A stretch of DNA of 64,000 bases, from contig JAMKCF010000001.1 in the NCBI GenBank assembly GCA_023634235.1, positions 9,116,758-9,180,757 on the forward strand. Reading direction: 5' to 3'. The DNA comes from Pisaster brevispinus (Eukaryota > Echinodermata > Asteroidea > Forcipulatida > Asteriidae). The position numbers and the translations under genes are program-made. Shown here piece after piece: positions 9,416 to 45,650 of this stretch; position 1 is the stretch's first letter; each line of letters starts with the position of its first letter. The notes beneath the pieces are model-generated. The model did not search any database. It had not been told where the DNA came from and saw only the letters and a program-made list of their open reading frames with translations.

Positions 9416-11098
9416 GAAAGAAAAATAATAATAATAACTAGATGTAAGTGATTGTAACTTACAATCACACAGTTGTTCCGTTCTGCTGACCTAGAAAGTT
9501 CTGTTTTGATGCCCAAAATGTGAACTGATTCTATATTTTGTGTATATGACGTAATATTGTTCGAAATGAATGCTTGTTTTCCAGAGTGATAATCACAGTG
9601 TAAACTAGTTTATTTGAGTTCGGATCTCGTTTTAGACCGGAAGTTAAGGTCAAAGTGAGGTCATCTTTTTTGTTAAAATGTTTCAAGCGTGGTAAGCTAC
9701 AAAACAACTCAAACATAACGACTCTATGACATGTGGTTCAGGAGATATGATTTCTTAAAGTTTGAACTTCCTGTTTGGACCAGAAGTAAAAGTCAAAGTG
9801 AGGTCACGATTGTACATAAAATGTCGCAAATGTTGTAAGCTACTATACAACACAAACACTAGACTTTATGACATGTGGTTCAGGAGATATGATTTGTTAA
9901 AGTTTTGAGCTTCCTGTTTGGACCGGAAGTAAAGTTCAAATTGAGGTCATTACTTTACATGAAATGTCGCAAGTGTTGTCAGCTACAATACAACACAAAC
10001 ATTACGCCTTTATGACCTGTGGTTCAGGAGATATGATTTTTAAAAGAATTGAGCTTCCTGTTTGGACCGGAAGTAAAGGTCAAAGAGAGGTCATCCTAAA
10101 AAATAATATTGTGCAATTGTTGTAAGCTACAAAACAACACAAACACTACGACTTTACAACATGTGGTTCAGGAGTTATGGTTTTTTCAAGGAATAAGCTT
10201 TGAATTACCGTAATTCGACACCTGATGATGTCACAGTAAAAAAATTGTGTTTTTCATACTAATAAATGTTATAAGTAATACGATGGTAAAAAAAAATATT
10301 TCCGATCTAATGCATTCTAAAAAAAACAAACCTACATAGGAGTAACATGTACTGCTCATGTACAAATCGAATGGGCTGTGCACAACGCACAAAGGTCCTT
10401 TGTCGGTTAGTAATTTAATAATTAAGCTACGCATTTCACGGTCTTCTTCCTAGACCCACAGTCCAAATCTCATAAGGGTCCTCACAGTACAGCATGACTT
10501 ATAGAGAAGATCAATTCAGCGCACTGGTTACTGGGTGTAGTCTATGAGACTTACCTTTTTACCCACGGTTACAAGTTGTACCAATTAAATATTAATTATA
10601 TAGGTCCTTTGATTAGTTTTTTGGGCATGAAACATCTCCCGTCAAAAGCACTTAACTTTTCTAAACAAATACGTAAACTAGGAAACTAATTAGTGCATTT
10701 AATTGAAAATAATGTGTTTTGGACTGTCAAAACTTTTACACTTTTAGCACCATGTGTTTTGTACACAAAATGAAAACGTGCCAACAAATGATGTCATGAT
10801 GACGTGACGGAGAATGTTAGGCCAGAACTTACATTCACAATACAAGACAAGTCCATAACTGAAAACAATTTGAGAATCGGATGTATACTTCCTGAGATAT
10901 GATCCACACAAGATTGACTAATTAAATATTCATACTGCTGTCACGTGAGTAATTAATTAAGAATTTGTATTAACTTACATCTAAAATCTAGTTCAAGACA
11001 TAAGCTTTTATATGGTAAAACCATTGACTACAGTTTTGTTTTTCTAAAATTGACATTTGGCGGTTAGAATAGTCATGTGTTAAGCCAACAGGTTTTTT
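9416..11098 (+). mobile_element. Hairpin-ended non-autonomous repeat, copy A
   Basis: Starts with (AAT)n-ACTAGATGT and a perfect 10-bp-stem hairpin (GTGATTGTAA paired with TTACAATCAC). It then runs through a 144-bp satellite, a CGACACCTGATGATGTCACAG box (10209-10229), a CCTACATAGGAGTAACATG box (10331-10349), a GTTTTGTACAC/TGACGTGACGG box (10753-10811) and an AATCGGATGTATACTTC...GATTGACTAATTAAATATTC box (10873-10934). The same order recurs in the other copies of this window. No ORF of coding character. Superfamily not established. Confidence 0.6.
9590..10195 (+). repeat. 144-bp satellite array (T-type)
   Basis: Four tandem units. The anchor GGTTCAGGAGATATGATTT recurs at about 9735, 9877, 10021 and 10165, giving a 142-144-bp period. 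Each unit also contains CTTCCTGTTTGGACCGGAAG, AAAGGTCAAAGTGAGGTCA and TAAGCTACAAAACAACACAA. The same unit recurs at 30.2-31.6, 34.2-34.9 and 43.0-44.1 kb. Confidence 0.85.
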
Positions 11099-11105
11099 AG
11101 GAAAA

Positions 11106-13262
11106 AGAATAATTACTAGATGTAAGTGATTGTAACTTACAATCACACAGCTGTTCCGTTCTGCTGAACTAAGAAATTCTATTTTGTAGCCGAAGATATG
11201 AGCTGATTCTGTATTTTGTGCATGTTTTAGGAGGTATCATTTGTTTAACTTTTAAACTTCCTGTTAAGCGTAAAGGTCAACACGAGGTCACAGTAACCCA
11301 AGTTCAATCTTCAATGCTCAATGAGTCTATAACTGAAAAGAAATTGAAAATCGGTTGTGTAGTTCTTAAGATATTGTTCCATTTCCGGTTGACCCTGAAG
11401 TAAAGGTCAACATGGGGTCATTATAAACCAAGTTCAATCTTCAAAGCTCAAAGAGTCTATAACTGAAAAGAAATTAAATTGGCTGTGTAGTTCGTGAGAT
11501 ATGGTCCCACTTCCGGTTGACCCGGAAGTAAAGGTAAACACGGGTCATAGTAACCCAAGGCTAATCTTCAATGCACAAAAGGTTTTTAACTGAATAAAAT
11601 TGAAAATCGGGTGCGTAGTACTTGAGATTTGGTCCACTTCCGGTTGACCCGGAAGCTCAGGTCAATATATGGGGTCATTGTAACACAAGGCTAACATTCA
11701 ATGCCAAGAAGTATATAATTGAAAAAAGTTTGAATATCAGATGTGCACTTCTTTAGATATGGTTCAACTTCCGGTTAAACAGGAAGTTTAGGTCAACTTA
11801 GGTCAAGATAACCCAGGGTTAACATTTATGCCCAATGAGTCTATAACTGAAAAAAGGTTAAAAATCAGGTGTATATTTTTTGAGATATGGTCCCACTTCC
11901 GTTTGACCCCGAAGTAAAGGGCAACATAAGGTCACGATTTCCCAAGGCTAATTTCCGTTGCCCATGGAGTCTAGAACTGAAAAAAAGTTTGAAAGTCGGT
12001 TGTGTAGTTCTTGAGATATGGTCCCACTTCCGGTTGACCCCGAAGTAAAGGTCAACCTGGGGCCGTATTTTCCCGAGGCTAATCTCTAATGCCAAGGAGT
12101 CTAGAACTTAAAAAAGTTTGAGAATCGGTTGTGTACTTCTTCAGATATGGTCCCACTTCCGGTTGACCCCGAAGTAAAGGTCAACATGGGGTCACAGTTT
12201 CCTAAGGCTTATCTCCAATGCCCAAGGAGTCTAGAACTGAAAAAAGTTTGAAAATTGGTTGTGTAGTTCTTGAGATATCGTCCCACTTCCGGTTGACCCC
12301 GAAGTAAAGGTCAACATGGGGTCACAGTTTCCCAAGGCTTATCTCCAATGCCCAAGGAGTCTATAACTGAAAAAAGTTTGAAAATCGGCCCTGTTCTTCT
12401 TGAGATATGGTGCTGCAAAGATTAACTAATTAAATATTCAAATAAAGATCTTAATTAATTTAGAGTTAAGCTTATGGTCTAAGCTTCAATTCGATATATG
12501 ATATAATTCTTTCATCTTTACGCTTTAGAATATTAGGCTTAAAGAAACACTGTGTACAAACGCTAAGGGATTTTAGGCGAAAACAGAATAATTCTGCATT
12601 CTCACGAAAACCCTAAACCTACGTAGGAGTTACATGGACATGTGATGATCATGTACAAATCGAATGGGCTGTGCACAAAGCAATTGGTCCTCTAACCGGT
12701 TAGGAACCGAATATCACGGAAATCTCCAACGCCTTGCTGTGATTGCGCAATCAAAATGGCTAGCCATGGTGTCCGATTTGTCACTTAATCGTTAATTATT
12801 GTGGAAAGATTGTTCTTTGATTAGTTTTAATGACCAGGAACATCCATTATTAAAAGCAATTAATTTTTCAAAACAGTTCATGTAATTTAAGAAACTAATT
12901 AGTGATGTTAATTGAAAATCTCGTTTTTGACTGTCAAAACATTTACACTTTTAGCGCCATGTGTTTTGTACACAGAATGAAAACGCGCCAACAAATGGCG
13001 TCATGATGACGTGACGGAGAATGGTAGGCCAGAATGCACATCTAAAATACAAGACAAGTCCATAACTTAAAAAAGTTTGAGGATCGGATGTATACTTCTT
13101 TAGATATGGTGCTAACAAGATTGACTAATTAAATATTCACACCGCTCTCACTTGAATAATTAATTAAGAATTTTTTTCCAATTACATCTAAAATTTAAGT
13201 CAGTGTATAAGGTTCAATATGGTAAATGATTTGTCTACTTTTGATAATTTTAAGAGGAACAT
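11106..13262 (+). mobile_element. Hairpin-ended non-autonomous repeat, copy B
   Basis: Begins with the same ACTAGATGT hairpin end as copy A (11116-11160). It continues with a 130-bp satellite (11.25-12.42 kb), the ACCTACGTAGGAGTTACATG/GAATGGGCTGTGCACAAAGC box (12617-12681), a GTTTTGTACACA/TGATGACGTGACGG box (12964-13017) and the GGATCGGATGTATACTTC box (13080-13097) followed by CTAATTAAATATTCAC. Head-to-tail with copy A. No coding capacity seen. Confidence 0.6.
11250..12420 (+). repeat. 130-bp satellite array (Y-type)
   Basis: About nine tandem units with a period of 129-130 bp. The anchor CACTTCCGGTTGACCC recurs near 12025, 12155 and 12285. Each unit contains CGAAGTAAAGGTCAACATGG, GAGTCTATAACTGAAAAAAG and GTAGTTCTTGAGATATGGTC. 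The last unit runs without a break into the GAGATATGGTG...CTAATTAAATATTCAA box of the element. Confidence 0.85.
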
Positions 13263-13264
13263 GT

Positions 13265-13625
13265 GGGGTGTCGTGGCCGAGCGGATAAGAGCATCGGACT
13301 CAAGTTCTGGTGGTTAAGTTATCGGTATGTGGGTTCGAATCCCGGTCGTGGCACTTGTGTCCTTAAGCAAGACACTTAACAATAATTGCTTCTCTCCACC
13401 CAGGGGTAAAAATGGGTACCTGTGAGGGCAGAGATGGTTTATGTGAATGATTAGCTTGGAGCGCGGTAAACTCGCAGCACCGGCTGTATACTCCCCAGGT
13501 AGCTGAGATGGTTTAAGGAATGAAATATATGGCCCAGTGACCAGGGGTAATAATGTCAGAAGCGCTTTGATACGCCCCTCGAGCTGTGATAAAGCACTAT
13601 ATAAGAATCGATTATTATTATTTAT
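13265..13625 (+). mobile_element. tRNA-Leu-derived SINE
   Basis: The head folds like a class II tRNA. Box A is GTGGCCGAGCGGATAAGAGC, the anticodon region is GGACTCAAGTTC (CAA, Leu), and box B is GGGTTCGAATCCCGG. The tRNA-unrelated body includes TGCTTCTCTCCACCCAGGGG, GGCCCAGTGACCAGGGG and AGCGCTTTGATACG. The 3' end is TATATAAGAATCG followed by (ATT)n. The same family occurs inverted at 39786-40139. It would be transcribed by RNA polymerase III and mobilised by a LINE. Confidence 0.85.
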
Positions 13626-14056
13626 AATTAACATATATGGCTTCTGAAATAGACACAGGTTAAGTCAATACGATTTTATGGAAAGAACGAATAATAAACT
13701 AGACATTAGGTGTTTGTGAACAAACACAAAGCTGTTCCGTTTTGTTGTGCTTTAAAATTCAATGATCCAGTCATTTAAAGTGAGCCTATGTTCAAGATTG
13801 ATTCCACTTCCGGTTCTTCCGGTTGACCCGGAATTTAAAGCACAACAAAACGGAACAGCTTCGGTTTGTTCACAAACACCTAATGTATAGTTTATTATTC
13901 GTTCTTTCCATAAAATCGTATTGACTTAACCTGTGTCTATTTCAGAAGCCATATGTTAATAATAAATAATAATAATCGATTCTTATATAGCGCTTTATCA
14001 CAGCCCGAGGGGCGTATCAAAGCGCTTCTGACATTATTACCCCTGGTCACTGGGCC
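13531..14056. repeat. 226-bp-arm inverted repeat
   Basis: Left arm 13531-13756 and right arm 13834-14056 are reverse complements with only a few differences. A spacer of about 77 bp separates them. Each arm carries the 3' end of the SINE joined to a hairpin-type element end (GTGTTTG/CAAACAC, then AGCTGTTCCG). The right arm lacks the SINE head, so the palindrome formed after the SINE inserted. Confidence 0.9.
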
Positions 14057-14102
14057 ACCTGTATATACTGATGAGCGTAATGTGAGGCTGACTCTTTCTA
14101 GA

Positions 14103-14657
14103 TAGCTTTACAATAAATTGATGATTGCTGACAACAGATTCGCAAAGAGTACACAATACATATTTTATGCTCAATATCTGTCGGAAATTAAGCAAGTGAT
14201 TTCCAGTGTTTCTATTGCAATTCGAAAAGGTACAGGCAAGACAAGGGATGGTGTGAATGTCACAGCTAGTATGCTTAATGACAAGGACAAGTTGAAAAAT
14301 GTGTTAAAATCTGATAGTGGATATAAGTTTTTGAAGTCAATTAGATGTACACCCCCATACTGGCAATCAACTCAGAAAAATGTATTAGCGATGATTAGAC
14401 AACTGTGTATTCCCACGTGGTTTTGTTCATTTTCTGCAGCTGATATGAGATGGCCTGAACTTATGAATACAATTAAACAACAAGGTGATTCTAGAAGAGT
14501 AGATGATCTGGACTGGAATGAGAAATGTACAATACTGAGGAGTAATCCTGTAACTGTGGCTAGAATGTTTGACAAGCGATTCCAAACATTTTTGAAAGAT
14601 GTGATAATGTCAAAAGCAGCACCTATTGGAAAAGTGAAACGCTACTTTTATAGAGTT
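14103..14657 (+). pseudogene. Helitron-type Rep N-terminal domain, truncated
   Basis: An open frame with the conserved core of the Helitron_like_N domain: [68 protein letters not shown] and [12 protein letters not shown]. In the full family this leads into the RGxPHxH metal-binding motif and then the catalytic tyrosines of a rolling-circle endonuclease. Here the frame is cut right after FYRVD, where LINE sequence begins at about 14658. The HUH motif, the Tyr motif and the helicase are absent downstream. The fragment therefore cannot nick DNA. Its 5' side starts just after the palindrome at 13531-14056. Confidence 0.8.
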
Positions 14658-14693
14658 GACGTGGCAAGCGTGGAGGCGTTAAACAAAGGGTAA

Positions 14694-15480
14694 GACAGAC
14701 CCCCTCTTCCATGTCTAACTCTTGGAAACGTTTGTTCCATAAACAATAAAATGGATGAAATTTGTGCTCACACAAGATGCAACAATGACTTTAGAAACTC
14801 CAGTGTGTTATGCTTTACCGAAACATGGTTGCAGTCAATCATTCCTAATTACATTGTTGATATTGATGGTTTCAACTTAATCCAACTGGATCGCTCATAT
14901 GAAAACACTAATAAAAGATGCGGTGGTGGAGTCTGCATGTATGTTAATAATCAATGGTGCAGTAATTTCAAAGTAAGGACAACAGTTTGCAACTCAAACA
15001 TTGAACTACTTTGTGTGTCCTTCAGACCATATTATCTCCCAAGGGAATTCAATCAAGTTCACATCTTCCTTGTGTATTTTGCGCCAGATGCTGATGCAAA
15101 CGAGGCAGCAGGTGTGATATATGACATAGTTCAACGGATGGAGGACTCTTCGCCAGACTCACAAAATTCATTCTTGGTGACTTCAACCATTGCAACCTCA
15201 GCGGAACTATCCCCATTACTTTCAATATGTGGACGAGGCTACGAGGGGAAACAACATACTCGACCGCTGCTATGGTTCAGTGAAGGATGCCTACAAGTGA
15301 ATCATTAGACCAGGTAGTGGCCGGTCTGACCATAACATTGTCCATCTTTTGCCTAAATATAAACAAAAACTAAAAATGGAAAAACCTCGGGAAAAAGTCA
15401 TCAGAATATGGAACAAGAAATCAATTGAAAAACTGCAAACATGTTTTGAAATCACCGATTGGGTAAATACTTCTGAATGG
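14694..15480 (+). pseudogene. LINE endonuclease domain, broken
   Basis: The frame opens before the ATG at 14751 (TLGNVCSINNKMDEICAHTR). It carries VLCFTETWLQ (catalytic Glu), RCGGGVCMYVNNQWC and FRPYYLPREF. A frame change near 15170 obscures the expected D-x-N block. NILDRCYG, then the GRSDHNIVHLLP catalytic block, appear at about 15250-15350 in other frames, with stops between. The AP-endonuclease would nick target DNA to prime reverse transcription. Confidence 0.8.
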
Positions 15481-15824
15481 ATCGGAAAACATCGATGAGG
15501 CGACGGACATAATCAACGAATATGTAAATTTCTGTCAAGATCTACATATTCCAGTAAAGACGATTAAAATATATCCTAACAATAAGCCCTGGCTCTCAAA
15601 TGAACTAAAAGCTATCCTCGCTGAGAAGAAACAAGCTTTTCAAATGAAAGAACTTAAATCAAAACTGTCATCAACAATTAAGAAAGCCAAACAAAACTAC
15701 AAGGACAAAATGGAAAGCTGCTTTATAACAAATAATCCACGAGAGGCCTGGCAGGGCCTACAAAACATAACTGGTTTTTCTAAAAAGAAAAAAATATGAC
15801 CCATTTGCAAACTTAGAAAACCCT

Positions 15825-17245
15825 TTGTCTACAGCAAACGAACTGAATACATTCTACAGTCGCTTCGACACTCAAAGCTTCAGTGATCAGACGTCATCAC
15901 AATGCTGGGTTTTATCCACTGATATGGAAAGCCAGCGTATTGTCATCGAAGTCAGAGAAGTCGAAAAACTTTTCAACAACCTAAATCCCCGTAAAGCAGC
16001 TGGTCCGGATAAAATCTCTGGAAGGGTACTTAAACTATGTGCCAAACAACTCGCAGTTCCCTACTCTGTTATTTTCCAGCAGTCAACAGACTCCCACTTA
16101 ATTCCATTTTGTTGGAAATCTGCTACTGTTGTTCCAGTACCAAAGCGAGCTCGACCATCTGAGTTAAACGATTATCGACCAATTGCATTAACGTCACTGA
16201 CAATGAAGTGTATAGAGAGAATCATCATGCGATTTCTTCTACAGCCGCTACTCAACCACAATGATAAATTCCAATTCGCCTACCAACCGAACAAATCTGT
16301 AGATGATGCAGTTCTTTGTCTGGTCAATGCTATCCAGAAACATGTCGATAAGGCTGGCTGTTATGCTCGGGCAACGTTTATTGACTTTTCATCCGCATTC
16401 AATTCTATCCAACCTTGTCGACTACTAGAAAGGCTACAAAACCTGAATGTCAACCCATCTCTCAGCGTGTAGTGGTCAATAACACTTTATCTGTGTTCTT
16501 TCACCATTGCTTTTTTATTCTGTATACGAATGATTACATCAATAACTCTAACAATGTCAGTATTTTTAAATATGCTGATGATACTGTGATTGTTGGTTTT
16601 CTCAAAGATAGTGAACTGAATTATAGAAATACCATTCATAACTTTGTTACATGGTGTAGCGACAATTTTCTGAAGTTAAACACCAAGAAGACATAAGAGA
16701 TGATCTTTGACTTCAGAAAGTCCAAACCTCATTTAAATTGTATTGCAATTAACAACGATGATTTTGATATTGTCCATTCCTACAAGTATTTAGGAACAAC
16801 CATTGATAGTACCCTATCATGGTTTGACCATTGTAAATCTCTTGTTGCCAAAGGACAACAGCGTCTATACTTTCTTAGGCAACTGAAATCATTCAGGGTC
16901 GATAAAACTATGAGGCTTTTTTATACTTCAGTCATCGAGAGTGTCATCTTGTACAGCTGTTGTGTATGGTTTAGTAGTGCAAGAAAAGGGGATTTAGTGA
17001 AGATTCAGAGAGTTGCTAAGCGGGCGGGTAAGATGTTTGGTAGAGAACAGGACATAAGTGCAATCTGTCATGAACGTATCTTAACTAAGGCCAAGTCAAT
17101 TTTAACTAATAACACACATCCATTACATGAATGTTATGAGGAAATGAGGTCTGGTAGGAGGCTGAGAAGTCTAAAATGCAGAACCAGTAGATATTTAAAC
17201 TCTTTTTTACCGCACTCTATTCGTATTTTTAATGACAGTCAGTAA
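15825..17245 (+). pseudogene. LINE reverse transcriptase, broken
   Basis: RT blocks in order: NPRKAAGPDKISGRVLKLC, SATVVPVPKRARPSELNDYR, FIDFSSAFNSIQPCRLLERL, a damaged SPQGC region near 16490, then FKYADDTVIVGF with the catalytic Asp pair at about 16568-16590. After a stop at 16694-16696 the thumb and C-terminal part are open from 16700 to 17245 (HSYKYLGTTID, AKGQQRLYFLRQLKSFRVDK). At least three frame breaks. It closely resembles the second copy at 26.4-27.9 kb in motif order and linker sequence. Confidence 0.85.
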
Positions 17246-17528
17246 ATTCTATGGCAACAAAGTATACAAGCCGTAGGAAAAGGAGAGGGGTGGGGGGGGG
17301 GGGGGGGCATAGACCAGTTTTTAAAATCTCTAGTGTTAGGGTTTGCTGGACAAACCCATTCCTTAATCTGTGTTTTTATTGAGTTTTATATTTGTATGCC
17401 CTCATGTGGATGGATTTTATTTAATTGAGTGTTAGTTTGTTATTTGTAGTTTTAATTCTTTGTACACTATGAGCATGTTCGACAATGTAAATTTCCATTT
17501 TATGGACAATAAATAATGAATTGAATGA

Positions 17529-17947
17529 AAGTACTCTGGGATAAGTGTCCATACAACTCATTGCCAGTATTTAACACAAAATCCATATCATCACCAGACC
17601 ACATATTCAAGTCCTTCACATAACTATACATAATAGCACAAAAACTGTTCGGTATGCATTGTTTCCCACTGTTAGCCTGGTATCTATGATCACCTTGATG
17701 GAACTTACCCTGTACAACAAAACTCTGATTTCCTGATGTTATTACATCTACATGTACATGTCTTTTCTTTTGATTTAGTATTTGATTTAGTATTCTTTTG
17801 TTGCTTCTGTTGATCATCATTTTTACTTTTGATTTCTTTGCTCATCACACGTCTTTTCTCGTTTGTTTTTGCCGCACTCACATCTGGATTTTTTCCAGAG
17901 AGCTTATGTTTTCTTATTTCGCATGAAATATCCTCCACTTTGTTCAC
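17529..17947 (-). pseudogene. Putative C76/OTU-like cysteine protease fragment
   Basis: The minus-strand frame from 17820 reads FVVQGKFHQGDHRYQANSGK, then QCIPNSFCAIMYSYV and MWSGDDMDFVLNTGNELYG. This layout (GxFHQGD, a QCxxN segment with the likely nucleophile Cys, then W...DLD-x-VL..G..LY) matches the herpes-tegument-like peptidase C76 fold. I recall that fold N-terminal to PIF1-type helicases and Helitron-like proteins in animals. The domain is cut after GHLSQST by the 3' end of the LINE. A Lys/Asn-rich linker in another frame (17705-17947) lies upstream. The exact family is inference. Confidence 0.45.
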
Positions 17948-18000
17948 ACTCTTTCTTCATTTTCATTCGTGATAACCTTGCATTGTCCTGTTCTTTTTCT

Positions 18001-18621
18001 TTACACAAAAAAATCACTTACATGTCTTCTTTCTTTGTCTTGAGAGCATTTCACATCAACCAGTTCATTGGAGCAATGTTCCTCAACACTGTATAAATTC
18101 ATATCAAACCCATTCAGACCTGCAGAAATGCAAAAATCACATAACAGATTCACACAGTAGTTTAAATATCCACATTTGCAACACATCCATGAGACACTTT
18201 TATCAATCAAAAGACCCTTCATGCTCAATAGCTTAGTACAACTTAAATGAAAACAAACATTACATTTCTCACATTGTATTGCACTTTCAATATCTAAATC
18301 ATATACATGTTCATCATCTTCACAAATCCAACACTTATCATAGGCATTCTTGTGAGTCAATCCGTTAAGTGTATTACACTGAGTATGTTTCTTGGTACAT
18401 GTACGTTCCACTTTGCATCCTGCAGTAGTTACCTGTTTGGTCTTAAACCGCTTCTTCAAATATCTGTTAATATTCCCATTCTCACATTGCACTTTCTCAA
18501 ACAAATTATCCTTTCTGATCAGACAACCCAAATTCTTCACAACTGTAGAAAGTGTCCTTTTGGTATGATGAAAGATACTCTTTTGTGTATTGTCATGGAT
18601 CTTCTTGTCTTTCTTGGACAT
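18001..18621 (-). pseudogene. PHD-like zinc-finger ORF
   Basis: A 206-codon open frame. Residues about 95-165 contain CWIC, QCEKC, CFHLSC, WMCCKCG and a further C-x2-C (LLCDFCI). The Cys/His spacing is like a PHD or RING-type finger with an aromatic residue two before the seventh ligand. The first 90 residues are basic. It lies directly upstream of the protease-like fragment in the same direction and probably belonged to the same protein; the frames differ (one shift between 18000 and 17947). The upstream frame (18537-19145) overlaps its start. LINE ORF1 proteins can also carry PHD fingers, but no matching LINE is seen on this strand. Confidence 0.45.
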
Positions 18622-31639: not shown

Positions 31640-31790
31640 TGACAACGGCCGAAACCCCAGTGTTTGTTCGTTACAAACTCATTTCTAGTTAGCTGTTCCG
31701 ACGTAGGAGTCGGAACAGCTATTGTTTTCGTCAGGATTTTTATTTGTTTTTCTTATTATTATTCTTTGTTTCCACCAAAATGCCATAGGT
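31640..31790. repeat. Hairpin terminus junction
   Basis: Two hairpins side by side. GTGTTTGTTCG-TTACAAACTC is an imperfect stem at about 31660-31680. AGCTGTTCCGAC-GTAGGA-GTCGGAACAGCT is a 12-bp stem at 31691-31720. CAGGATTTTTATTTG and a TTATTATTATTC microsatellite follow. The same arrangement, reversed, occurs at 41700-41760 and 45545-45650. Confidence 0.8.
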
Positions 31791-32770
31791 TTTGTACATG
31801 CATTTTGTTATCTCCTAAAGTCATACTAGGCTCAGTATAAAATAGTCAGATCATATATCATATTAAAGCTTAGGTCATGAAGCTATAGTAAAATGTAATA
31901 AACTTAACTAAATTAAGTAATTTACTCAGTTATAATGACATGAATATTTAATTAGCCAATCTTGAGACCACCATATCTCAAAAAGTACACGTCCAATCGT
32001 CAAACTTTTTTCGATTTTATAAATGTTGGATACTGTAAAACTGTTTTCTGGCCTAAAATGCCGGACGAAAAATAGAGTGGCGAGCTTCTTCCATCCCTTC
32101 ATGGTCATTTCTTTGTTTCGACATGAGAGTTAATCAATAAAAAAGGGAAGGGTTTGAAATCTGTAAGATTCAGTAACGCGAGTTGCAAGATACAGCTGTA
32201 GAACACCACGTAGTTGGTTAATTAATCATCCTTTCCAATGCCCCCCCCCCCAGGGAAAAACAATGCAGGTTTATAAATTTTTGGTAACTTTTTAATTAGT
32301 TTTCAATAGATTGTAACATTTTGCTTTTTTTTCCATGTTTAATTTCAATAAGGAAATCTGGAAGACTGGATGAAGGATCGATCCATTAACAGCTGGACCA
32401 TCAAGTGCTGGACTCTCGATGACTGAACCCTCTACATCAACTGCACAAATGGATTGTTTATCGGAAACGTGCATTGGTTGTTCTTTGAGTCTGAATCAGT
32501 GTTTAGGATTTCATTTTAGGATTTTAAAACATCAACAGCTTCCCAACTCATGGGGTTTAGAAAATTGTATGATACCGAAGGCTAAAAAGACAAGCTAAAG
32601 GAATATGTACATTAATTATGAAACAAAGATATTTGGTTAACCAATACAAATGTTTATTTACTCTTTCAATTTATCATGAGTTGATGGTCAATTAAATGTT
32701 GATCACAACACTTTTACAAGCAACACTCTGGAATCAGTTTGACATAGGTTTGAAAAGTGTGCGTCAAGTA
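31790..32770. repeat. Left arm of a large inverted duplication
   Basis: 31790-32085 matches 41385-41700 inverted, and 32090-32770 matches 39215-40375 inverted. Landmarks are AAAATGCCATAGGTTTTGTA, TGATGAAGGATCGATCC-type sequence at about 32370, and GCCTTCGGTATCATACAA (reverse of 32560-32585). Relative to the right arm, about 1 kb (about 40380-41383) is missing here at the junction near 32086. This arm also lacks the SINE present at 39786-40139, so it represents the empty site. Confidence 0.8.
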
Positions 32771-33950
32771 CATGTTCAAAGTCCCATATTCAATGAGGAA
32801 TAGTAACATTTTGGCATGACCACCTCTGTGGGCCATCATAAAATTCAAGTAAATTTTAACCTTTGGAAACATATGTCAATAAGTTTCATACCCAGTATGA
32901 TATGATCACCTTTATTACAAGGCACAACGGTTCATTTCGTTGTTCCACTGTGTAAAAGTCCCCACAACTCTGGGTATGCCCACCCATTACTGTAAAAATG
33001 TAGTTATTGCAATGCTGTACAATAGCGTTCTTTATCATATTTATCTTTAATGTATTGTTACACCCCTATTAACATGTATTATGGATTTATGGAATTTCAT
33101 TCTGATGAGTAAAGCAAGAAAACAAAAAATTTATAAAACAGTTTGTAGTATTTTGGCATGATCATTTTCTGTGGCAGTTCAAAATCTAACTCTAAGTTAT
33201 GAAAGTGTAAATGGTGTAGAACTACTAAACATCTTTTGTACCAGTGTGTAGTTAACAAGCACAGTATAATTTGGTTTGTTTCAAGTTTGTAATGGCTTTA
33301 GAATCAATTTCAGTTGATAAAGACTATCATTTTAGAAATTCTTAACATCTTTTCTTTCTGCAGAGTTTTGCAGTAGTCAATAAACAGTGAAACAAAGTGC
33401 AGCGAAACGTTCCTTGTTTGTTTTTGTTGTCGTTAAAGGACCTGAATTTTGGTAAACATTTAAAAAATTCCCCTCTTATCTTGACTACCGAGGGTGCTGT
33501 TGCAGTGATGTCATCTCAGGGAGCCGCTTGTTTTATTTTTGTTTAAAAAAATGAATTGTGAATCCCCAAATTTGCTTGTTAGAAGAATTTGTGAGAAGAT
33601 TGCACTTTGGCTTGACATAATATGACAAATTAACAAATCATTATAGAAAAGAATGTTTATGGCAGAGAATAGCATTGTAAACTCTGTCCACTTTTTGTGC
33701 ATAAACTAATTGTAAAATACCCTTAAAAATGGCAACATGAAGGTTAGAAATAAGGTGAAATGGAACACAATGGTGCATCTCCAACGATTGCACTGAAAAA
33801 ATTTTTCTTGGACCTTTAAAATGTTTTTATGAAACCTGTTTGTTCTTAGTGTGACGATTAATGATAAATGTTCACCATAAAGAGAAATTTTTTCGCTTGT
33901 TTAAACATGTATTTGCAACACAATGGAATATATTAACATTCTATTAACAG
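32771..33950. other. Unassigned sequence between repeat blocks
   Basis: No supported gene. CAGAGTTTTGCAGTAGTCAATAAA near 33361 and GTGCAGCGAAACGTTCC near 33396 look like unique or old repeat DNA. No repeat partner was found elsewhere in the window. Confidence 0.35.
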
Positions 33951-33959
33951 AATGGGTTA

Positions 33960-35000
33960 ATACATATGCAATGCACTTCTGATCCTTGATATTCGATTCC
34001 TAACCAGTAGAGGACCCATTGCTTTGTGCACAGCCCATTCGATTTGTACATGAGCAACATGTAATTCCTACGTAGGTTTAGGGTTTTCGTGAAAATACAT
34101 TTGATGGAATTTGGTTTTTTACCATCGTGTTCTTTATGAAGTTTATTAGAATGAATAACACAATTGTTTTTACTGTGACGTCATCAGGTGTCGAATTATG
34201 ATAATTCGAAGCTTATTCCTTTAAAAAAACTATATCCACATGTCGTAAAGTCGTACAGTTAGTGTTGTTTTGTAGCTTACAACAAATGCAAAAATTTAAT
34301 TTTAAAGATGATGTCACTTCGACCTTTACTTCCGGTCCAAACAGGAAGCTCAAAACTTTAACAAATCATATCTCCTGAACCATAGTCATAAAGTCGTAAC
34401 GTTTGTGTTGTGTTTTGGCATACAACACTGGGGTCGTTTTATGTACAATACTGACCTTACTTTGACCTTTCCTTTTGGTCCAAACAGGAAGCTCAACAAT
34501 TTAACAGATGATTTCTCCCGAACCACATCTAATAAAGTCGTAATACTTCTGTTGTTTGAAACTTACAACAATTTCAAAATTTTAATAAAAAACAATGACC
34601 CACTTTGACCTCTACTTCCGGTCCAAACAGGAAGCTCAAAACTATAAAAAAAAACCCATATCACCTGAACAAAATGCCATTGTGTTGTGTTGTAGCTTAC
34701 AACAATTGCAACATTTTATTTAAAAACATGGCCTCATTTTGATCTTTACTTCCAGTCAAAATATGAAGTTCAAATACAAAATTAAAAATTCCTGACCCAC
34801 AAGTCGTTTGTGCCATATTGTATTACAGAGTCCATGTAACATTTGTTTAAAAAACACGACTACACTTAAGCTTTACGGTTTGGGATTAGTGCCTCAATTT
34901 CAGGGTTCATTTCAGGGTCTGGATCAAAGAGTGATATCCTAACACCGGAACAGCTTTGTGTTTGTTCACAGAATAAACACTTGACATCCAGTTTTTATTA
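33960..35000 (-). mobile_element. Hairpin-ended repeat, copy C (reverse)
   Basis: Reading from 35000 downwards: (AAT)n-ACTGGATGT, a stem GTGTTT...AAACAC (34950-34978), AGCTGTTCCGG, four to five T-type satellite units (34240-34860), the CACCTGATGACGTCACAG box (34167-34190) and the CCTACGTAGGAATTACATG / CAAATCGAATGGGCTGTGCA box (34010-34075). It ends near 33960. Same element order as copies A and D. Confidence 0.65.
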
Positions 35001-35019
35001 TTATTATTCTTTGTTTCCA

Positions 35020-37440: not shown

Positions 37441-37449
37441 TAGTGCAAC

Positions 37450-37697
37450 ATTTGACCTTATTCTTGCTTGCTGGTGAATGTTTCGCTGTCCAAGCTGAGC
37501 ATCATCTGCTGATTTGTACCCTCATTTTACCACCATATCGACTGTGATTGCTTTTCTGGTATCTTGTTTTCATTTGGAATAACGTGACCAGAGTGATTTT
37601 GACAAAGGAGAAGGATCTATTTGAGAGAGTTTTTTAGATCGTCATCGCCTGAATTCTGAGGCATCGCGCGATTTTGGACTGTTCCACTAGCAACCAG
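37450..37697 (+). other. Probable non-coding 5' exon of the chromo-barrel-like gene
   Basis: Unique-looking sequence that ends in CAACCAG|GTACGTGAGTAAG, a near-ideal donor at 37698. The first compatible acceptor before a coding frame is at 38531 (T-run, then CAAG). The 5' limit is not visible. No ORF with a start upstream. Confidence 0.4.
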
Positions 37698-38531
37698 GTA
37701 CGTGAGTAAGTAGTATACTACAGGCACAGCACTAGCACACTGTATGTATGGAAATGCTGATTGTGCTGCCAATGCATGAGAATGTTCATGCATAGTATTC
37801 AGGTTTTTGTTGTCAAAATGAGCTCAGATATTAAAAACAATGGCGTTTTAATTTACAACTAAATTGAAATTGAAAATTTTTGCAAATTTATTTTAATTCA
37901 TTTGGCAGTCATGACAGTCCAGTCAGTGGGTATTTTTTTAATAAAAAAATGCTAGTTAATGAATTAGGCCTACAGCATAGCCACTCGCCTTCTGTGACTA
38001 GGTGAGAAAATTGTGTGTACCTTTTGTTGAGCACAGTCTATTTCAGATTTATGTAAAGTCATGTTAGTCATTTTCACAAGTGAAGTCTCAAGTCGCATTT
38101 TTTTCTCGAGTCACAAGTAATTTCTTGTTCAAAGTTGAAGTCATGTTTGCAGAATTGTGTTGATAACTAGTAGTATATGATTTACAGAGTGCATGCATCT
38201 GTGCATATGGCGGTGTTTTCCATATTTTATTTCCACATTTTTTCCAACTTTAGTTTTAGCTTAGGCGTTCTTGGCCTAAAGAAAGAAAAAAATAAAATTA
38301 TTTTAGTTTAACCAACCTTTCTTTTTACTGAGTCCAATCGAGTGACCCAAGTCTTCATTTCCATACAAGTCCATGCAAGTCAAGACAAGTCGCAAATCAA
38401 TTTCAATAAAATCGGACTCAAGATTAATTTAGTCCAGTCACAAATTTGAGTCACCAACACTAATAAATTTCCTACACAGGTGTGATGATTTTGTTCATGA
38501 TTTTTTCAAATTATAATTTTTTTTTTTCAAG

Positions 38532-38945
38532 GTGGCTTGTATGGCAGACCGGCCAAAAAGGTGCCAACATGGAATTGACTACAAGGCATTGGCAGAGGGA
38601 CCAGCATTCCACCGAGAGCGTCAAACGGCCACAAACTGGTCAACCAGCAAGCTGTACCCTCTGAACATTTTGGATTTCAAAACCGAACATGACACCGTGT
38701 ATGGCTTAGTTCACAACATTGGCTGGGACAAGCGTTACAATGAATGGCGGCCAGTAAATGAAATCGTTGATATTCCCAAAGAATTCTTAGAAACAACAGG
38801 AGAAGCCACATCCTTCTTTTATTTGCAACTGGCCACAAGAATCAAGGAGGCGCTTCACATACAGCGGAAAACGGACAGCTTTGTGGAGGTGCATCTTCCA
38901 ATGCCAAGGGATGCCTTCATATCATTTTCACCCAGTGCAACTCAC
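38532..38945 (+). CDS. Chromo-barrel/tudor-knot-like exon
   Basis: An exon preceded by a T-rich acceptor (TTTTTTTTTCAAG|GTGG). The first ATG is 38541, giving MADRPKRCQHGIDYKALAEG. The middle part, GLVHNIGWDKRYNEWRPVNE plus IVDIP, has the V-H-x2-GW-x3-Y-x-EW pattern of chromo-barrel/tudor-knot domains, which bind modified histone tails or nucleic acid. The last part, LATRIKEALHIQRKTDSFVE, matches the C-terminal segment of an uncharacterised family that I recall in cnidarians, fish and invertebrate deuterostomes. The frame is open to 39029, but from about 38979 the DNA belongs to a repeat arm, so the true C-terminus is lost. Intact within the domain. Confidence 0.55.
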
Positions 38946-39214
38946 ATCTTGTATTTTATTGACATTATGTATATATATGACGTCATTTATTGCGCGTTTT
39001 GTATCTGTGTACAAAACCCATGGCTGTAAGATTCTAAACTTGATCAAGTCCAAGCGATGTTGTTGCGTATTTTGTACATAATACACAGACTCTTCACGGT
39101 GGAAGACTTAGGGAAGTTTATTTTTTAACGCATATTGGACACATCCTTGCATGGAGGACTTATCCTTGCAAGCGTCTTTGAGTAATGAACTCGGGCTAGC
39201 GAATCACCTCAAAA

Positions 39215-40375
39215 TATTTGGTTAACCAATACAAATGTTTATTTACTCTTTTTAATTTATCATGAGTTGATGTTCTAATAAACATTTCACAAATTAATTG
39301 TAGATCACAACACTTTTACAAGCAACACTCTGGAATCAGTTTGCCATAGGTTTGAAAAGTGTACAAGTACAGTCGACACTCGTAAATAAACATTTGTATT
39401 GGTTAACCAAATATCTTTGTTTCATAATTAAAGTACATATTCCTTTAGCTTGTCTTTTTAGCCTTCGGTATCATACAATGTTCTAAACCCCATGAGTTGG
39501 GAAGCTGTTGATGTTTTTAAATCCTAAAATGAAATCCTAAACACTGATTCAGACTCAAAGAACAACCAATGCATGTTTCCGATAAACAATCCGTTTGTGC
39601 AGTTAATGTAGAGGGTTGTCACCAAGAGTCCAGCACTTGATGGTCCAGCTGTTGATGGATCAATCCTTCATCCAGTCTTCCAGATTTCCTTATAGAAATT
39701 AAACATGGAAAAAACCCGAAATGTTACAATCTATTGAAAACTAATTAAAAAGTTACCAAAAAAATCATAAACCCGCATTGTTTTTAATAATAATAATAAT
39801 AATAACTAGTTCTTATATAGCGCATTTCACAATAACGTCTCAATGCGCTTTACATTAGTGCCCTGGTCATTGGGCCAATAACATTCCTGTAATCTTTCTC
39901 AGCTCCCTGGGGAGTATACAGCCCGGGCTGCCGTGGCGCTCCGAAGGCTTTTTCAAACACAATATCAACCTCTACCCTAGCAGGTACCCATTTATACCCC
40001 TGGGTGAAGAGAAGCAATTATAGTAAAGTATCTTGCTCAAGGACACAAGTGTCATGACCGGGATTCGAACCCACACCCCGATGACTTAACCATCGAAACT
40101 TGAATTCGATGCTCTAAACCACTCGGCCACATGACACCCCTGGGGGGGGGGGGGGGGGGTGTATTGGAAAGGATGATCAATCAACTAACTACGTGGTGTT
40201 CTGTAGCTGTATCTCGCAACTCGCTTATTGAATCTTAAGTTAGGTTTTAATCTTGCACTCATGTTATCAAATCTCACAGATTTCAAACCCTTCCCTTTTT
40301 TATTGATTAACTCATGTCGAAACAAGGAAATGACCATGAAGGGATGGAAAAAGCTCGCCACTCTATTTTACAGAG
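39215..40375. repeat. Right arm of the large inverted duplication
   Basis: Inverted match of 32090-32770, interrupted by the SINE. It begins with a short direct repeat of the same segment (39209-39375 resembles 32630-32770 in direct orientation) before the inverted copy starts at about 39385 (AACATTTGTATTGGTTAACC). A small internal palindrome of this segment therefore exists. Confidence 0.75.
39786..40139 (-). mobile_element. tRNA-Leu-derived SINE, reverse copy
   Basis: Same family as 13265-13625, on the minus strand. The head is GTCATGTGGCCGAGTGG with anticodon region ATTCAAGTT (CAA) and box B GGGTTCGAATCCCGG. The body contains TGCTTCTCTTCACCCAGGGG and GGCCCAATGACCAGGGC, and it ends in AAGAACTAG(TTATTA)n. 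It sits in the right arm of the inverted duplication; the matching point in the left arm near 32255 has no SINE. Confidence 0.88.
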
Positions 40376-41699
40376 GGATTGATTAACATTGCTATTGTTC
40401 AATGACATGAGGGCGAACGTTGACACCTCAGATGCTCATTGTCTGGTAAAATGTACCCATAAGTTAATAAAACCCCCATAATTTTGTTGTTACGGGGAGG
40501 GGGGGGGGGTGTTGGAAAGGTGATTCATCTACTCACCTCTATTTCACTGTGACTAGAACCAATACTTAAACAGGAAATTTAAAATATTTCTTATGGGCAA
40601 GAAACAAAGATGGGAAAAATTCCGTAGCCACGAAAAGGGGATTTATTCAAGTTTTTTAATTGATGTTGAACTTCCTTTCTCTTGTACCTGTTTAAATATT
40701 CCTGGTGAGGAATTGGTAGCTGAAACGCTAAACTTGGATGAATGGAAAAACAAGTTGCAAGTGGATTTGTCACTCAGGAGTTTTTGTTTGTTTTTGGTCT
40801 GCAAAGAAAGGATCAATAAAGGGGTGGAACAAGCCCGCCACTATCTTAAACAGAGGGATTTATAGCATTGTCCTTGTTTAGTGACGTGACGGTGAACACC
40901 ATCATTGACATAGGCTCATGGTGTGTACATTCGGATCATTCGGTACTGCCCAATCGAGTTTGCCTAGTATCCGGACAAGGAGTTTCTGATCACAAGTCAC
41001 TTACCCGTGGAATTTTCCTTCTTATCGTCCATTTGGCCATTTCACTTTCTAGCTTTTAAGCTTGACTCCCTGACTACATTCTGGCAATTTTGGGGGCTTT
41101 CAGTGTTGACTAAACTAACTGAAACTGCACCCTTTTTGAGGTGATTCGCTAGCCTGAGTTCGTTGCTCAAAGACGCTTGCAAGGATAAGTCCTCCATGCA
41201 AGGATGTGTCCAATATGCGTTAAAAAATAAACTTCCCTAAGTCTTCCACCGTGAAGAGTCTGTGTATTATGTACAAAATACGCAACAACATCGCTCGTAT
41301 ACGGGACTGGGACTTGATCAAGTTTAGAATCTTACAGCCATGGGTTTTGTACACAGATACAAAACGCGCAATAAATGACGTCATGGTGACGTCGTCCGGC
41401 ATTTTAGGCCAGCAAACAGTCTTACAGTATCCAACAAGTATAAAACCGAAAAAAGTTTGGCGATCGGACGTATACTTTTTGAGATATGGTGGTCTCAAGA
41501 TTGGCTAATTAAATATTCATGTCATTATAACTGAGTAAATTAATTAAGTAAGTTGAGTTAATTACATTTTACTATAACTTCATGACCTAAGCTTTAATAT
41601 GATATATGATCCGACTATTTTATACTAGGCCTACTATGACTTTAGGAGATAACAAAATGCATGTACAAAACCTATGGCATTTTGGTGGAAATAAAGAAT

Positions 41700-41770
41700 A
41701 AAACTAAAAACAAACTAGAAACGAGTTTGTAACGAACAAACACTGGGGTTTCGGCTTTGTTGTCAATGTT
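41700..41770. repeat. Hairpin terminus, single
   Basis: ACTAGAAAC followed by the stem GAGTTTGTAAC/GAACAAACAC and GGGGTTTCGGC. This is the inverted counterpart of 31640-31680. AATTTGACACCTGATGACAT follows at 41787, as in the other copies. Confidence 0.7.
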
Positions 41771-41859
41771 GAATTAATGTAACAATTAATTTGACACCTG
41801 ATGACATCACGATGATGAAAACACGTTTTTCGTACGAACTTTGTTATAAGCAACAAGAC

Positions 41860-42510
41860 GGTACAAAAATTATAACTCTTTTACTTTATGGTTCAGACGA
41901 TATAAAGTTTTAAATAATTGTAAATAATAAACTACCATACCAATGATAAAGTAATTAATAAGCTATACCGCACAGACCTTGAAATAAATTGTGGTGGGAG
42001 AATGCAATGAAATTGTGCGAGAACAAACCGCTACTAATATCCCAAAACACTTCCGTATAAGGTTCGAGGACTCTCCACAAACAAGAGGGCGCTATACAGG
42101 TGCACCGTTAACTGTAGAAGCGAAGCAGCGAACCAAAATGAACGGTACAAAGGTCGAACGATGCCATGCGCGTGGACTAGGGGCTGTGTGGGTCTGGCCG
42201 TGTGCAGCGTGTTACGATGCCTAGCGTGAGAAGCAATGGCTGTGTGGAGTGATGGCCGTATGGGATGTACAGCGTAAATTACGTGCAATGTACACACACA
42301 CGACGATCATGCTTTGTTGACGATACGTGTTTTAAAATCGTTAATATCGTCATCAAAGGATTAAAAAATCCTTGATCGAACTACTGCTTGATCTAAGTTA
42401 GAGCACAGGCTTTCATTTGATGTATTGTTTGTGTCTTTTAAGACTGTAGTTCCTGAGATCGAGCGGTAACAAATTTCATGTGTAAATGCTATGAGACTTT
42501 TTCGGAAAGA
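41860..42510. repeat. X block, inverted copy
   Basis: Reverse complement of 30700-31345. Landmarks are TCCACAAACAAGAGGGCGCT, CGTTAATATCGTCATCAAAG and CTTTTAAGACTGTAGTTCCT. A 77-codon ORF at 41991-42224 spans it, but its sequence is not conserved as protein in the other two copies, so it is treated as chance. Confidence 0.8.
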
Positions 42511-42549
42511 AGAATAATAATAGTGAAAAAAAAATAAAAATCTCGACGA

Positions 42550-42700
42550 AAACAAAGGTGGTTTCGGCTGATGGCCGAAACCCCCAATAATAATCCTGAC
42601 GAAAACAATAGCTGTTTCGACTTCTACGTCGGAACAGCTAATAAAAATAATAAAAATCTTGACGAAAACAAACCTGAAACAAACACATAATAATAATAAT
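42550..42700. repeat. Tandem hairpin termini
   Basis: Three successive units of the form AATCCTGACGAAAACAA followed by a hairpin. The hairpins are GGTTTCGGC-TGAT-GGCCGAAACC, AGCTGTTTCGAC..GTCGGAACAGCT and a shortened CCTGAAACAAACAC. AATAATAAT spacers separate them. Same type as 45545-45650. Confidence 0.75.
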
Positions 42701-43099
42701 AATAACTAGATGTCAAGTGTTTGTTCTGGGAACAAACACAAAGCTGTTGCGAATTTAGGATATGACTGTTTGATCCAGACCCTGAAATGAACCCTGAAAT
42801 TGAGGCACTAGACATAAACTCTAAACATATCTCAAACCCTCTATTTGATTATAACGGTGCAAAAATCCAAAACCGTAAGGCTGAAGTGCGGGTCGTGTTT
42901 TTAAATAAGATGTTACGTGTGCTCTTTGCTACAATACGGCACAAAAATAATGATTTAACGACTTGTGGGTCAGGATTTTTATTTTATTTTATTGAACTTC
43001 TTATTTTGACTGGAAGGACAGATCAAAATGAGGCCATGTTTTTAAATAAAATGTTGCAACTGTTGTAGGCTACAACACACCACAAACATCAAAACTTTA

Positions 43100-44110
43100 T
43101 GGCATTTTGTTCAGGTGATATTTTTTTTTAGTTTTGAGCTTCCTGTTTTGACCGGAAGTAGAGGTCAAAGTGGGTCATTGTTTTTATTAAAATATTGAAA
43201 TTGTTGTAAGCTTCGAACAACAGAAATATTACGACTATTAAATGTGGATCAGGAGAAATCTGTCAAATTGTTGAGCTTCCTGTTTGGACCGAAAGGAAAG
43301 GTCAAAGTGAGGTCATCATTCTTCATAAAATGTCGTAAGTTTTGTTAGCTACAACAAAACACAGACGTTACAACTTTATGACATGTGGTTCAGGAGATAA
43401 AGTTTCGAGCTTCCTGTTTGGACCAGAAGTAATGGTAAAAGTGAGGTCGTCATTCTTCATAAAATGTACGTGTTGTTAGCTACAATAAAACACAAACGTT
43501 AAGACTTTATGACATGTGGTTCAGGAGATATAATTTGTTAAAGTTTTGAGCTTCCTGTTTGGACCGGAAGTAAAGGTCAAAGTGAGGTCATCATTCTTCA
43601 TAAAATGTCGTCAGTGTTGTTAGCTACAACAAAACACAGACGTTACAACTTTATGACATGTGGTTCAGGAGATAAAGTTTCGAGCTTCCTGTTTGGACCA
43701 GAAGTAACGGTCAAAGTGAGGTCGTCATTCTTCATAATATGTCGTACGTGTTGTTAGCTACAATAAAACACAAACGTTACGACTTTATGACATGTGGTTC
43801 AGGAGATATAATTTGTTAAAGTTTTGAGCTTCCTGTTTGGACCGGAAGTAAAGGTCAATTGAGGTCATCATTCTTCATAAAATGTCGTCAGTGTTGTTAG
43901 CTACAACAAAACACAGACGTTACAACTTTATGACATGTGGTTCAGGAGATAAAGTTTCGAGCTTCCTGTTTGGACCAGAAGTAACGGTCAAAGTGAGGTC
44001 ATCTTTAAATTTAAATTTTTGCATTTTTGTAAGCTACAAAACAACACTAACTATACAAATTTACGACATGTGGTTCAGGAGATATGATTTTCTAAAGGAA
44101 TAAGCTTCAA
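43100..44110 (+). repeat. T-type satellite with A/B dimer higher-order repeat
   Basis: The anchor ACATGTGGTTCAGGAGATA recurs near 43381, 43521, 43652, 43791, 43934 and 44068. Units alternate between an A form (GGAGATAAAGTTTCGAGC) and a longer B form (GGAGATATAATTTGTTAAAG). The A+B dimers of about 271-280 bp are far more alike than A is to B. Confidence 0.85.
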
Positions 44111-44433
44111 ATTACCGCAATTCGACACCTGATGACGTCACAGTAGAAACAAATTGTGTTATTCATACTAATAAATTTGATAAGGTACAAGATGGTATGT
44201 AAACTTATCCCCATACAAAGCCTTTTAACGAAAACCATAAACGTACGTACGTATTGTTCATGCATAAATCCAATGAGCTTATTTTATTTCCTTAAAAACC
44301 ATCGACAGCCACAAAATAGAAAAAAAAGAAAGTTTTTTATATCCATTGAGATACAGGAAACAATATTATATAAGTTAAAGACGAGTATTCTCTTTTGGGG
44401 GATGAACAAAAAAGAAGAAGTAATCAAACAGGA

Positions 44434-44505
44434 TTCGAACCGCTCACATTCTACATTAAAGGCAACGACCTTAACCATTGCGCCATTCGACCAATTGAGA
44501 ATTTT
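44434..44505 (-). tRNA. tRNA-like sequence (pseudogene or SINE head)
   Basis: On the minus strand the sequence has box A TGGCGCAATGGTTAAGG and box B GGTTCGAATCC at normal spacing. The acceptor arm does not pair cleanly and the anticodon loop is ambiguous. A pol III promoter relic is likely; a working tRNA is not. Confidence 0.4.
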
Positions 44506-45544
44506 AAATTATATACTTTTGGTCTGGGTAACGGGGTATTTATGCAACTATAAGTTTAGTTATAAATTATCGACATTTAATCATTTCGGGTTTTTTTGTG
44601 TATACGCTATTGTTTTATAATTGTATGTGTAACTTTTAGTCTGCGTGCTTCATAAATCTTGTCACTTTGTTGATATGTTAAAAACTTAACGACGGTACTA
44701 ATCGGTCACTTCAGCACATCGCAAACTCGGCACTTAACTTGCCCCTCTACCTAGGCCTCACAGTTCTACGAATTAAAGTAGAAATACTCAATACTAAATC
44801 GTCCAGTGTGGGGAAACACAGTAATGAGATTGTTTTTGCTCAGCTGGTCTGTGGTTATCGGGTGAATGTAGAATGGCATCAGGAGTTTCAACGATCACGG
44901 CCACAGTCACTTCGCGTGGTGGCCATGCAGATTATCGAATGGGTTCTATGCTGGGTCCTCTCTCGGTTAGGATTCCAATATCATTCAAGGTAATCTCTGA
45001 CGCCTTGCCGTGATTGCGCAATCAAAATGGCTAGCCGAGGTGTAAGATTTGTTACTTTATCTCTAATTATTGTGGGAATACATTGTTTTTTTATTAGTTT
45101 AATGGCCTGGAATCATTCTTAGTAGAAACATTTGTTTTTTTAAATGATTTGTGTATTATGGGTAACTAAAATTCAACCTTTTTTGAAAATTAATGGTTTT
45201 TGACCAACTAAAATACTTCCACTTTTCAGAGCCATGGGTTTTGTGCACAATAAGTATAAAATCGAAAAAAGTTTGACGATCGGACGTATACTTTTTGAGA
45301 TATAGTGGTCTCAAGATTGGCTAATTAAATATTCATGTCATTATAACTGAGTAAATTAATTATTTAAGTTAAGTTAATTACATTTTACTATAACTACATG
45401 ACCTAAGCTTTTAATATGATATATGATCTGACTATTTTATACTAAGCCTACTATGACTTTAGGGGATAACAAAATGCATGTACAAAACCTACAGCATTTT
45501 GGCGGAAATAAAGAATAATAAGAAAACAAATAAAAATCCTGACG

Positions 45545-45650
45545 AAAACAAAAGCTGTTCCGAATCCTACGTCGGAACAGCTAATAATAATATAAATAAT
45601 AATCCCAACAAAAACAAAACCTGTTCCGACTGCTAAGTCGGAACAGCTAA
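45545..45650. repeat. Tandem hairpin termini
   Basis: Two units. First AATCCTGACGAAAACAAA with AGCTGTTCCGA/TCGGAACAGCT, then AATCCCAACAAAAACAAAAC with CTGTTCCGACT/AGTCGGAACAG. They are separated by AATAATAATATAAATAAT. This marks the end of copy D. Confidence 0.8.

Follow-up and report, generated by a model that had tools for sequence, protein, structure and literature searches.

What kind of element ends in the variable hairpins that recur along a 64,000-nucleotide stretch of the Pisaster brevispinus genome? This stretch, hereafter the window, covers 9.12-9.18 Mb of contig C1 (JAMKCF010000001.1, positions 9,116,758 to 9,180,757) in a genome of 550 Mb. An earlier, sequence-only reading had pointed to hairpins at 9440, 11126, 13711, 34955 and 42719 as the ends of one repeat family, and all five are present at these positions. 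We analyzed the window together with genomic loci (L001-L064) chosen for the motif, and report that the hairpins belong, with a probability of about 0.92, to non-autonomous, non-coding rolling-circle transposons of the Helitron2/Helentron type (HINE, DINE-1-like), as judged from their terminal anatomy. A Helitron2-type protein would presumably be involved in moving them.

Element ends and their anatomy

Both termini of the element are visible in a head-to-tail array (L009) whose period is 2,252 bp, where they are joined as CTAG-TT-AGCTG. Because the termini can be seen there, the hairpin first noticed in the window can be placed as the 3' hairpin, and AGCTGTTCCG as the 3' member of an asymmetric end repeat. 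The element starts directly after TT with AGCTGTTCCGAC-loop-GTCGGAACAGCT, a 5' repeat contained in a 5' hairpin, and DNA folds of four such 5' ends gave -10.8 to -14 kcal/mol (z -5.4 to -6.7). An (ATT)n stretch lies ~60 bp inside the 5' end and is followed by central tandem repeats, which we located four times in the window (Table 1). The 3' end reads, in order, CGGAACAGCT (the 3' repeat), ~2 nt, the variable hairpin, mostly 5-8 nt (3-12 seen) and CTAG, with TT beyond it; the 3' repeat is therefore subterminal and directly upstream of the 3' hairpin, with ~28-41 nt separating it from the last base of CTAG among the forms listed. Evenly spaced head-to-tail copies also occur at C10:7017842-7026044, with 2,725 bp between four 3' ends, and the even spacing of copies there and at L009 suggests recent tandem growth.

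This anatomy bears out the earlier suggestion of a Helitron/Helentron 3' hairpin, which sits between the 3' end repeat and CTAG and has a partner 5' end with a hairpin of its own. The ends proposed from sequence are real, but their reading direction was reversed: by anatomy they are 3' ends on the opposite strand. Strand was assigned from anatomy alone, with no gene used, because no coding partner is linked to the ends. The (AAT)n tract that had been included in the element was rejected as a component because such flanks match the interiors of other copies; it is variable flanking target DNA, which in the window belongs to the 5' interior of a further copy.

A covariance model of the ends, built from 19 sequences (A1, R1) that included the window ends at 31649, 34946 and 42704, recovers eight ends in the window at E<=3.3e-6 (Table 1). 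Their shared frame is less complete than had been proposed: exact ACTAGATGT is present at 3/8 ends and AGCTGTTCCG with at most one mismatch at 6/8, the ends at 31649 and 41713 carrying GCCGAAACCCC instead. Could these be chance hairpins that share a short motif in an AT-rich genome? ACTAGATGT alone, with at most one mismatch, indeed shows no excess over chance in the window. The exact frame ACTAGATGT-N8..38-AGCTGTTCCG, by contrast, occurs 181 times genome-wide against 0 for a reversed-pattern control run on the whole genome, AGCTGTTCCG with at most one mismatch is found 16 times in the window against 1.86 expected, and a hairpin precedes CTAGTT at 41/139 sites against 1/867 for control hexamers (in the window and the motif-chosen loci), which makes coincidence hardly credible. 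The related case, in which unrelated copies would have only AGCTGTTCCG in common as a lone palindrome, was rejected, as its partner 5' repeat was found and the two form an end-to-end inverted repeat.

Complementarity of the two end repeats

The end repeats fall into four classes: a (AGCTGTTCCG), b (AGCTGTTTCG), c (AGGTGTTCGG) and d (GGGGTTTCGG). For two of them, exact 3'-end patterns match 1,458 (class b) and 1,498 (class c) sites genome-wide. When each 3' end in the fetched loci and the window was joined to the nearest open 5' end, 23 end pairs were found, each within a single repeat class; all 21 pairs shorter than 5 kb are single-class (13 a, 6 d and 2 b), 3 of these 21 being redundant copies. 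Class-c elements show a matched pair at two of the three loci looked at (L059 and L062).

We then compared the ends of 20 elements, obtained from the 23 pairs by leaving out three redundant ones and two whose span of more than 28 kb made them meaningless, and by adding L059 and L062. Taking best matches inside a short search window, the 5' and 3' repeats differ at 3/200 positions, and the 5' repeat and its own hairpin partner at 11/200. In elements at L020, L022, L023, L043, L048, L059 and window 42585 the 5' hairpin is mismatched at base pair 2 or 3 of the 10-bp repeat, and at these very positions the 5' and 3' end repeats match. Such co-change of the two end repeats agrees with, without proving, the idea that they pair during replication, as put forward in the part of the Helitron2 report available to us (PMC3627910).

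Covariation in the 3' stem

The sequence-only reading held that changes in the stem are compensated, and proposed a covariation check. In the 19-sequence alignment 94.1% of cells pair, against a shuffled mean of 83.3%, double changes occur at 5/9 stem pairs (2.2 in shuffles) and the covariation score is 0.264, against 0.098 for shuffled and at most 0.047 for slid versions; the number of further standard pair types was no higher than in shuffles (9 vs 8.0, 150/500 shuffles). For a second test we gathered class-c and class-b ends by end repeat and CTAGTT alone, with no hairpin required (all 100 class-c matches listed of the 1,498, and 4 of the class-b forms listed), and added 8 class-a and class-d forms. 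All were aligned on the conserved TTGT..ACAA core and reduced to 13 family-level units. In these, 45/52 cells are paired, against a permuted mean of 31.8; as many were reached in 3/20,000 permutations, and in 0/20,000 on recount. Seven stem types were seen, all of which pair: GTGT/ACAC, GTTT/AAAC, ATTT/AAAT, GAAT/ATTC, GAGT/ACTC, GTGA/TCAC and GCAT/ATGC. In 80 of the 100 listed class-c ends, every one of the four outer positions is paired. Double changes and paired cells exceed shuffles and permutations, and the covariation of stem types between families supports the view of a 3' hairpin kept paired by selection. Such a hairpin may be recognized during transposition.

Insertion at TT and nesting of copies

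TT precedes the 5' end in 20/20 elements, followed in class d by one or two G, and all 20 end in AGTT: the 3' terminus is CTAG in 19 and CCAG in one, giving CTAGTT or, once, CCAGTT. The insertion-site check by empty site, also proposed earlier, was made at one element, E8 (42585-41715). On its removal, the rejoined flanks of the class-a element E7 align with two intact relatives, and compared with the closer one (31691) the junction carries two Ts more than the intact site and a few substitutions next to them. This site differs by TT alone, in line with insertion at TT.

Each of the eight 3' ends in the window abuts another copy, at its 5' interior or its 5' end. The flanks at 9441 and 11119 match interiors in L022 and L023 over 30 bp and 116 bp, those at 13702 and its mirror 13892 match array-unit position 62, and the flank at 41718 is another copy by the rejoined-flank comparison. 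At 31685 a 5' end follows directly after CTAGTT and, by reading, the flank at 34988 is CTTTGTTTCCACC interior and that at 42709 is (ATT)n, with a 5' end some 70 nt further. The (ATT)n that each element has ~60 bp from its 5' end acts as a landing target, and younger copies lie nested in older ones. Genome-wide, 107 exact 3' ends are joined to an (ATT)n-CTTTGTTTCC stretch of another copy. The listing for C1 up to 20 Mb holds 18 of these, two of which, at 0.64 and 0.71 Mb, appear to be a single duplicated segment. For 14 of the 18, a 5' motif lies within 12 kb upstream on the same strand, and for none is there one on the opposite strand (random expectation 0.35).

Several 5' ends often stand in a row, with runs of 7-8 short 5' ends at L005, L029 and L052. 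Runs of this kind could also stem from aberrant rolling-circle replication, in which the terminator is lost and the 5' part amplified in tandem, with no nested insertion; some of the units are near-uniform, and the available part of a study of plant Helitrons (PMC12628747) proposes such a process to explain arrays in which many 5' ends accompany a single 3' end. We consider this an unlikely general explanation. At C1:17412500-17424500 three 5' ends are matched in order by three 3' ends, forming a nest of depth three, and the remnant bodies of the middle and outer copies pick up again at about position 59-69 of the inner copy, ~60 bp inside. Stacks also mix classes a and d (L044; window 42639/42585), and the 107 3' ends joined to (ATT)n-CTTTGTTTCC of other copies are as expected from nested insertion. 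It is possible that the 7-8-member runs are replication errors or, as proposed for FoHeli of Fusarium oxysporum, composites, the longest of which may have moved as a unit.

A more speculative idea, which we regard as doubtful, is that (ATT)n is selectively kept as a self-landing site that spares host genes, that nests let an outer 5' end mobilize with an inner 3' end, and that the four repeat classes are compatibility groups.

Competing assignments and proposed mechanism

Several observations weigh against the Helitron2/Helentron assignment or against strict pairing. No Rep-helicase with these ends was found in L001-L064 and the window, where the sole Rep coding is a fragment at 14106-14690. 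At the class-c locus L060, 3' ends were seen and no class-c 5' hairpin. Two 3' ends, one at window 11119 and the other outermost in the nest of three, read CTAGTA, which qualifies the insertion-site result, and the junction TT might be a target duplication of 2 bp and not element sequence. The folding energies of six 3' hairpins exceed those of shuffles only modestly in several cases (z -0.93 to -3.09), and in class d the 3' stem pairs imperfectly. Among the listed class-c matches (100), 12 are unpaired somewhere in the outer four positions and 8 are without the TTGT..ACAA core, and stray copies within families carry one-sided stem changes; one-sided changes and lost cores are, as expected, what decaying or dead copies should show. 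Finally, the CTAG terminus fits the CTRR of canonical Helitrons (Helitron1).

A canonical Helitron would indeed end, as these elements do, in a 3' hairpin, a few nt (here mostly 5-8) and CTRR. The elements are however without the 5'-TC, insert between T and T rather than between A and T, and have both a 5' hairpin and an end-to-end inverted repeat, neither of which Helitron1 has according to the available parts of two reports (PMC3627910 and PMC4067079), making this assignment very improbable. Hairpins at both ends and the lack of a long target duplication would also suit IS200/IS605-like single-strand elements residing in a eukaryote. The inverted end repeat, central tandem repeats, TT target and head-to-tail copies fit Helitron2/HINE instead, and no gene for TnpA (Y1) was named among the 10 scanned of the 19 window open reading frames (ORFs) of at least 150 aa, a scan outside which the elements themselves lie; we judge the odds of such an origin to be slimmer still.

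Anatomy, pairing, covariation, TT junctions and nesting are observed here, while every catalytic step of the following scheme is inferred from the known Helitron2/Helentron-type families. A nick between TT and AGCTG at the 5' end, made by a Rep-helicase encoded elsewhere, would let one strand be peeled off. Strand transfer would stop at a 3' terminator composed of CGGAACAGCT, the hairpin and CTAG, and the released strand would be inserted at TT. The 5' repeat could pair either with the strand just behind it, as the 5' hairpin, or with the 3' repeat; having two pairing partners, it would therefore require both ends to stay complementary. The 3' stem would likewise have to stay paired. Across families, end repeats and stem do change in compensated steps.

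Relation to known elements

The comparisons below draw on the portions of the published reports that were available. In the Helitron2 group (Bao and Jurka 2013, PMC3627910), the 5' repeat lies 0-2 bp from the 5' end within a 5' hairpin, the 3' repeat lies just upstream of the 3' hairpin at ~20-30 nt from the end, the terminal inverted repeat is short (8-15 bp) and asymmetric, and the target is T-rich; compensatory changes were reported in two related elements, and the two repeats were suggested to pair during replication. The elements described here share the 5' repeat in a 5' hairpin, the 3' repeat before the 3' hairpin, the asymmetric end repeat, the T-rich target and the compensatory changes. 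They differ in that their 3' repeat stands farther in (~28-41 nt from CTAG), in the coexistence of four repeat classes within a single genome, and in being known from their ends with no linked RepHel.

Helentrons and HINEs (Thomas et al. 2014, PMC4067079) insert at TT with no other target change and have a 3' stem-loop and end repeats. DINE-1 (Yang and Barbash 2008, PMC2374699) also inserts at TT and bears a 3' stem-loop, with stems of 7-11 nt that differ between species, from which compensatory mutation was inferred and a role as rolling-circle terminator suggested. Like both, our elements are non-coding and combine a TT target, end repeats, a 3' stem-loop, central tandem repeats and a microsatellite near one end. 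By contrast, the stem varies here between families of one genome, the microsatellite-like (ATT)n is a landing site for other copies, and a partner with Rep/helicase fused to an AP endonuclease, the mark of an autonomous Helentron, was not seen in the fetched DNA. FoHeli (PMC5148889) has end repeats, hairpins and copies in which several short 5' termini go with a single 3' terminus, for which self-insertion was the proposed cause. Multiple 5' termini are likewise seen here; what sets the present elements apart are an intact, matched nest of depth three and runs of up to 7-8 5' ends.

A literature search, in which most subscription papers were out of reach, returned no description recognized as these elements. 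Compensatory stems, TT targets, paired end repeats and multiple 5' ends have all been published, as the available parts of these four reports show (PMC2374699, PMC3627910, PMC4067079, PMC5148889), and the elements do not open a new kind. They do provide, in one host, a large natural test of the published 5'/3' repeat pairing, with four classes, at least seven stem types and about 3,000 exact 3'-end matches in two classes alone, and the one intact nest shows how multiple 5' termini can arise.

Other features of the window

Table 1. Elements, element ends and neighboring features in the window (E, covariance-model E value for ends)
Feature	Position	Strand	Remarks
E1	9436..11114	-	relative of the L009 array unit, matched in pieces; 143-bp tandem repeats 9631-10190
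E1 3' end	9436..9480	-	3' repeat CGGAACAACT, hairpin GTGATTGTAA/TTACAATCAC, CTAG then TT; E 4.2e-12
E1 interruption by E2	about 11100-11114		at the AATAATT stretch of E1
E2	11115..13697	-	matches array-unit positions 2251 down to 62; 130-bp tandem repeats 11270-12411
E2 3' end	11114..11158	-	reads CTAGTA; inside the 5' interior of E1; E 1.4e-11
Split of E2 by SINE-like insert	about 13260-13640
E3 3' end	13697..13739	-	stem GTGTTTGT/ACAAACAC; in (ATT)n of E2; E 1.6e-13
Second, inverted E3 3' end	13851..13892	+	within fold-back duplication (arms 13530-13725, 13864-14057); E 3.3e-7
Helitron_like_N (PF14214) Rep fragment	14106..14690	+	domain match E 3.7e-24; outside any demonstrated element
Class-d element 3' end	31649..31690	+	GGCCGAAACCCC repeat; TT joins the next 5' end
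E4, complete class-a	31691..34991	+	5' hairpin 31691-31720
E4 3' end	34946..34993	+	terminus CCAG; stem noted earlier at 34955
Central tandem repeats	34246..34641
E8, complete class-d, 871 bp	41715..42585	-	5' hairpin GGGGGTTTCGGC, 3' repeat GCCGAAACCCC; nested in E7
3' end	41713..41754	-
E7 (class-a) 5' hairpin end	42610..42639	-	(ATT)n interrupted by E8
E5, complete class-a	42706..45582	-	5' hairpin 45582-45553; 134-bp tandem repeats 43046-44091
E5 3' end	42704..42751	-
E5 host site	45648-45619		(ATT)n of outer 5' end
Outer element 5' hairpin end	45619..45648	-	entered by E5

The Rep fragment has 47 database relatives, all with PF14214; a sequence search of the PDB with it gave nothing at E<=0.1, and Rep scans of L063 and L064 found none. 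It adjoins a fold-back duplication at 13530-14057 and is followed by reverse-transcriptase coding at 15825-16469; a further reverse-transcriptase ORF lies at 48124-49338. The arms of the fold-back, 13530-13636/13951-14057 (97%) and 13635-13725/13864-13954 (99%), repeat in inverted form an element 3' end together with its (ATT)n flank and a portion of a SINE-like (short interspersed nuclear element-like) repeat. Because one 3' end is mirrored in this way, two 3' ends face each other ~110 bp apart. A miniature inverted-repeat transposable element with terminal inverted repeats at 13730-13860 was rejected as a candidate, as it is this fold-back duplication of the 3' end.

Rfam families gave 0 matches in the window at gathering scores. 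The insert at 13260-13640, in the 5' part of E2, ends in ATTATTATT and is, as we take it by eye, a tRNA-derived SINE-like repeat; ARAGORN called no tRNA there. An inverted repeat at 9134-9377, with 80-bp arms (98%) 84 bp apart, adjoins the 3' end of E1. The ORF at 8199-8867 matches Phage_integrase (PF00589, E 1e-9) and is perhaps a tyrosine recombinase of a DIRS- or Crypton-like element.

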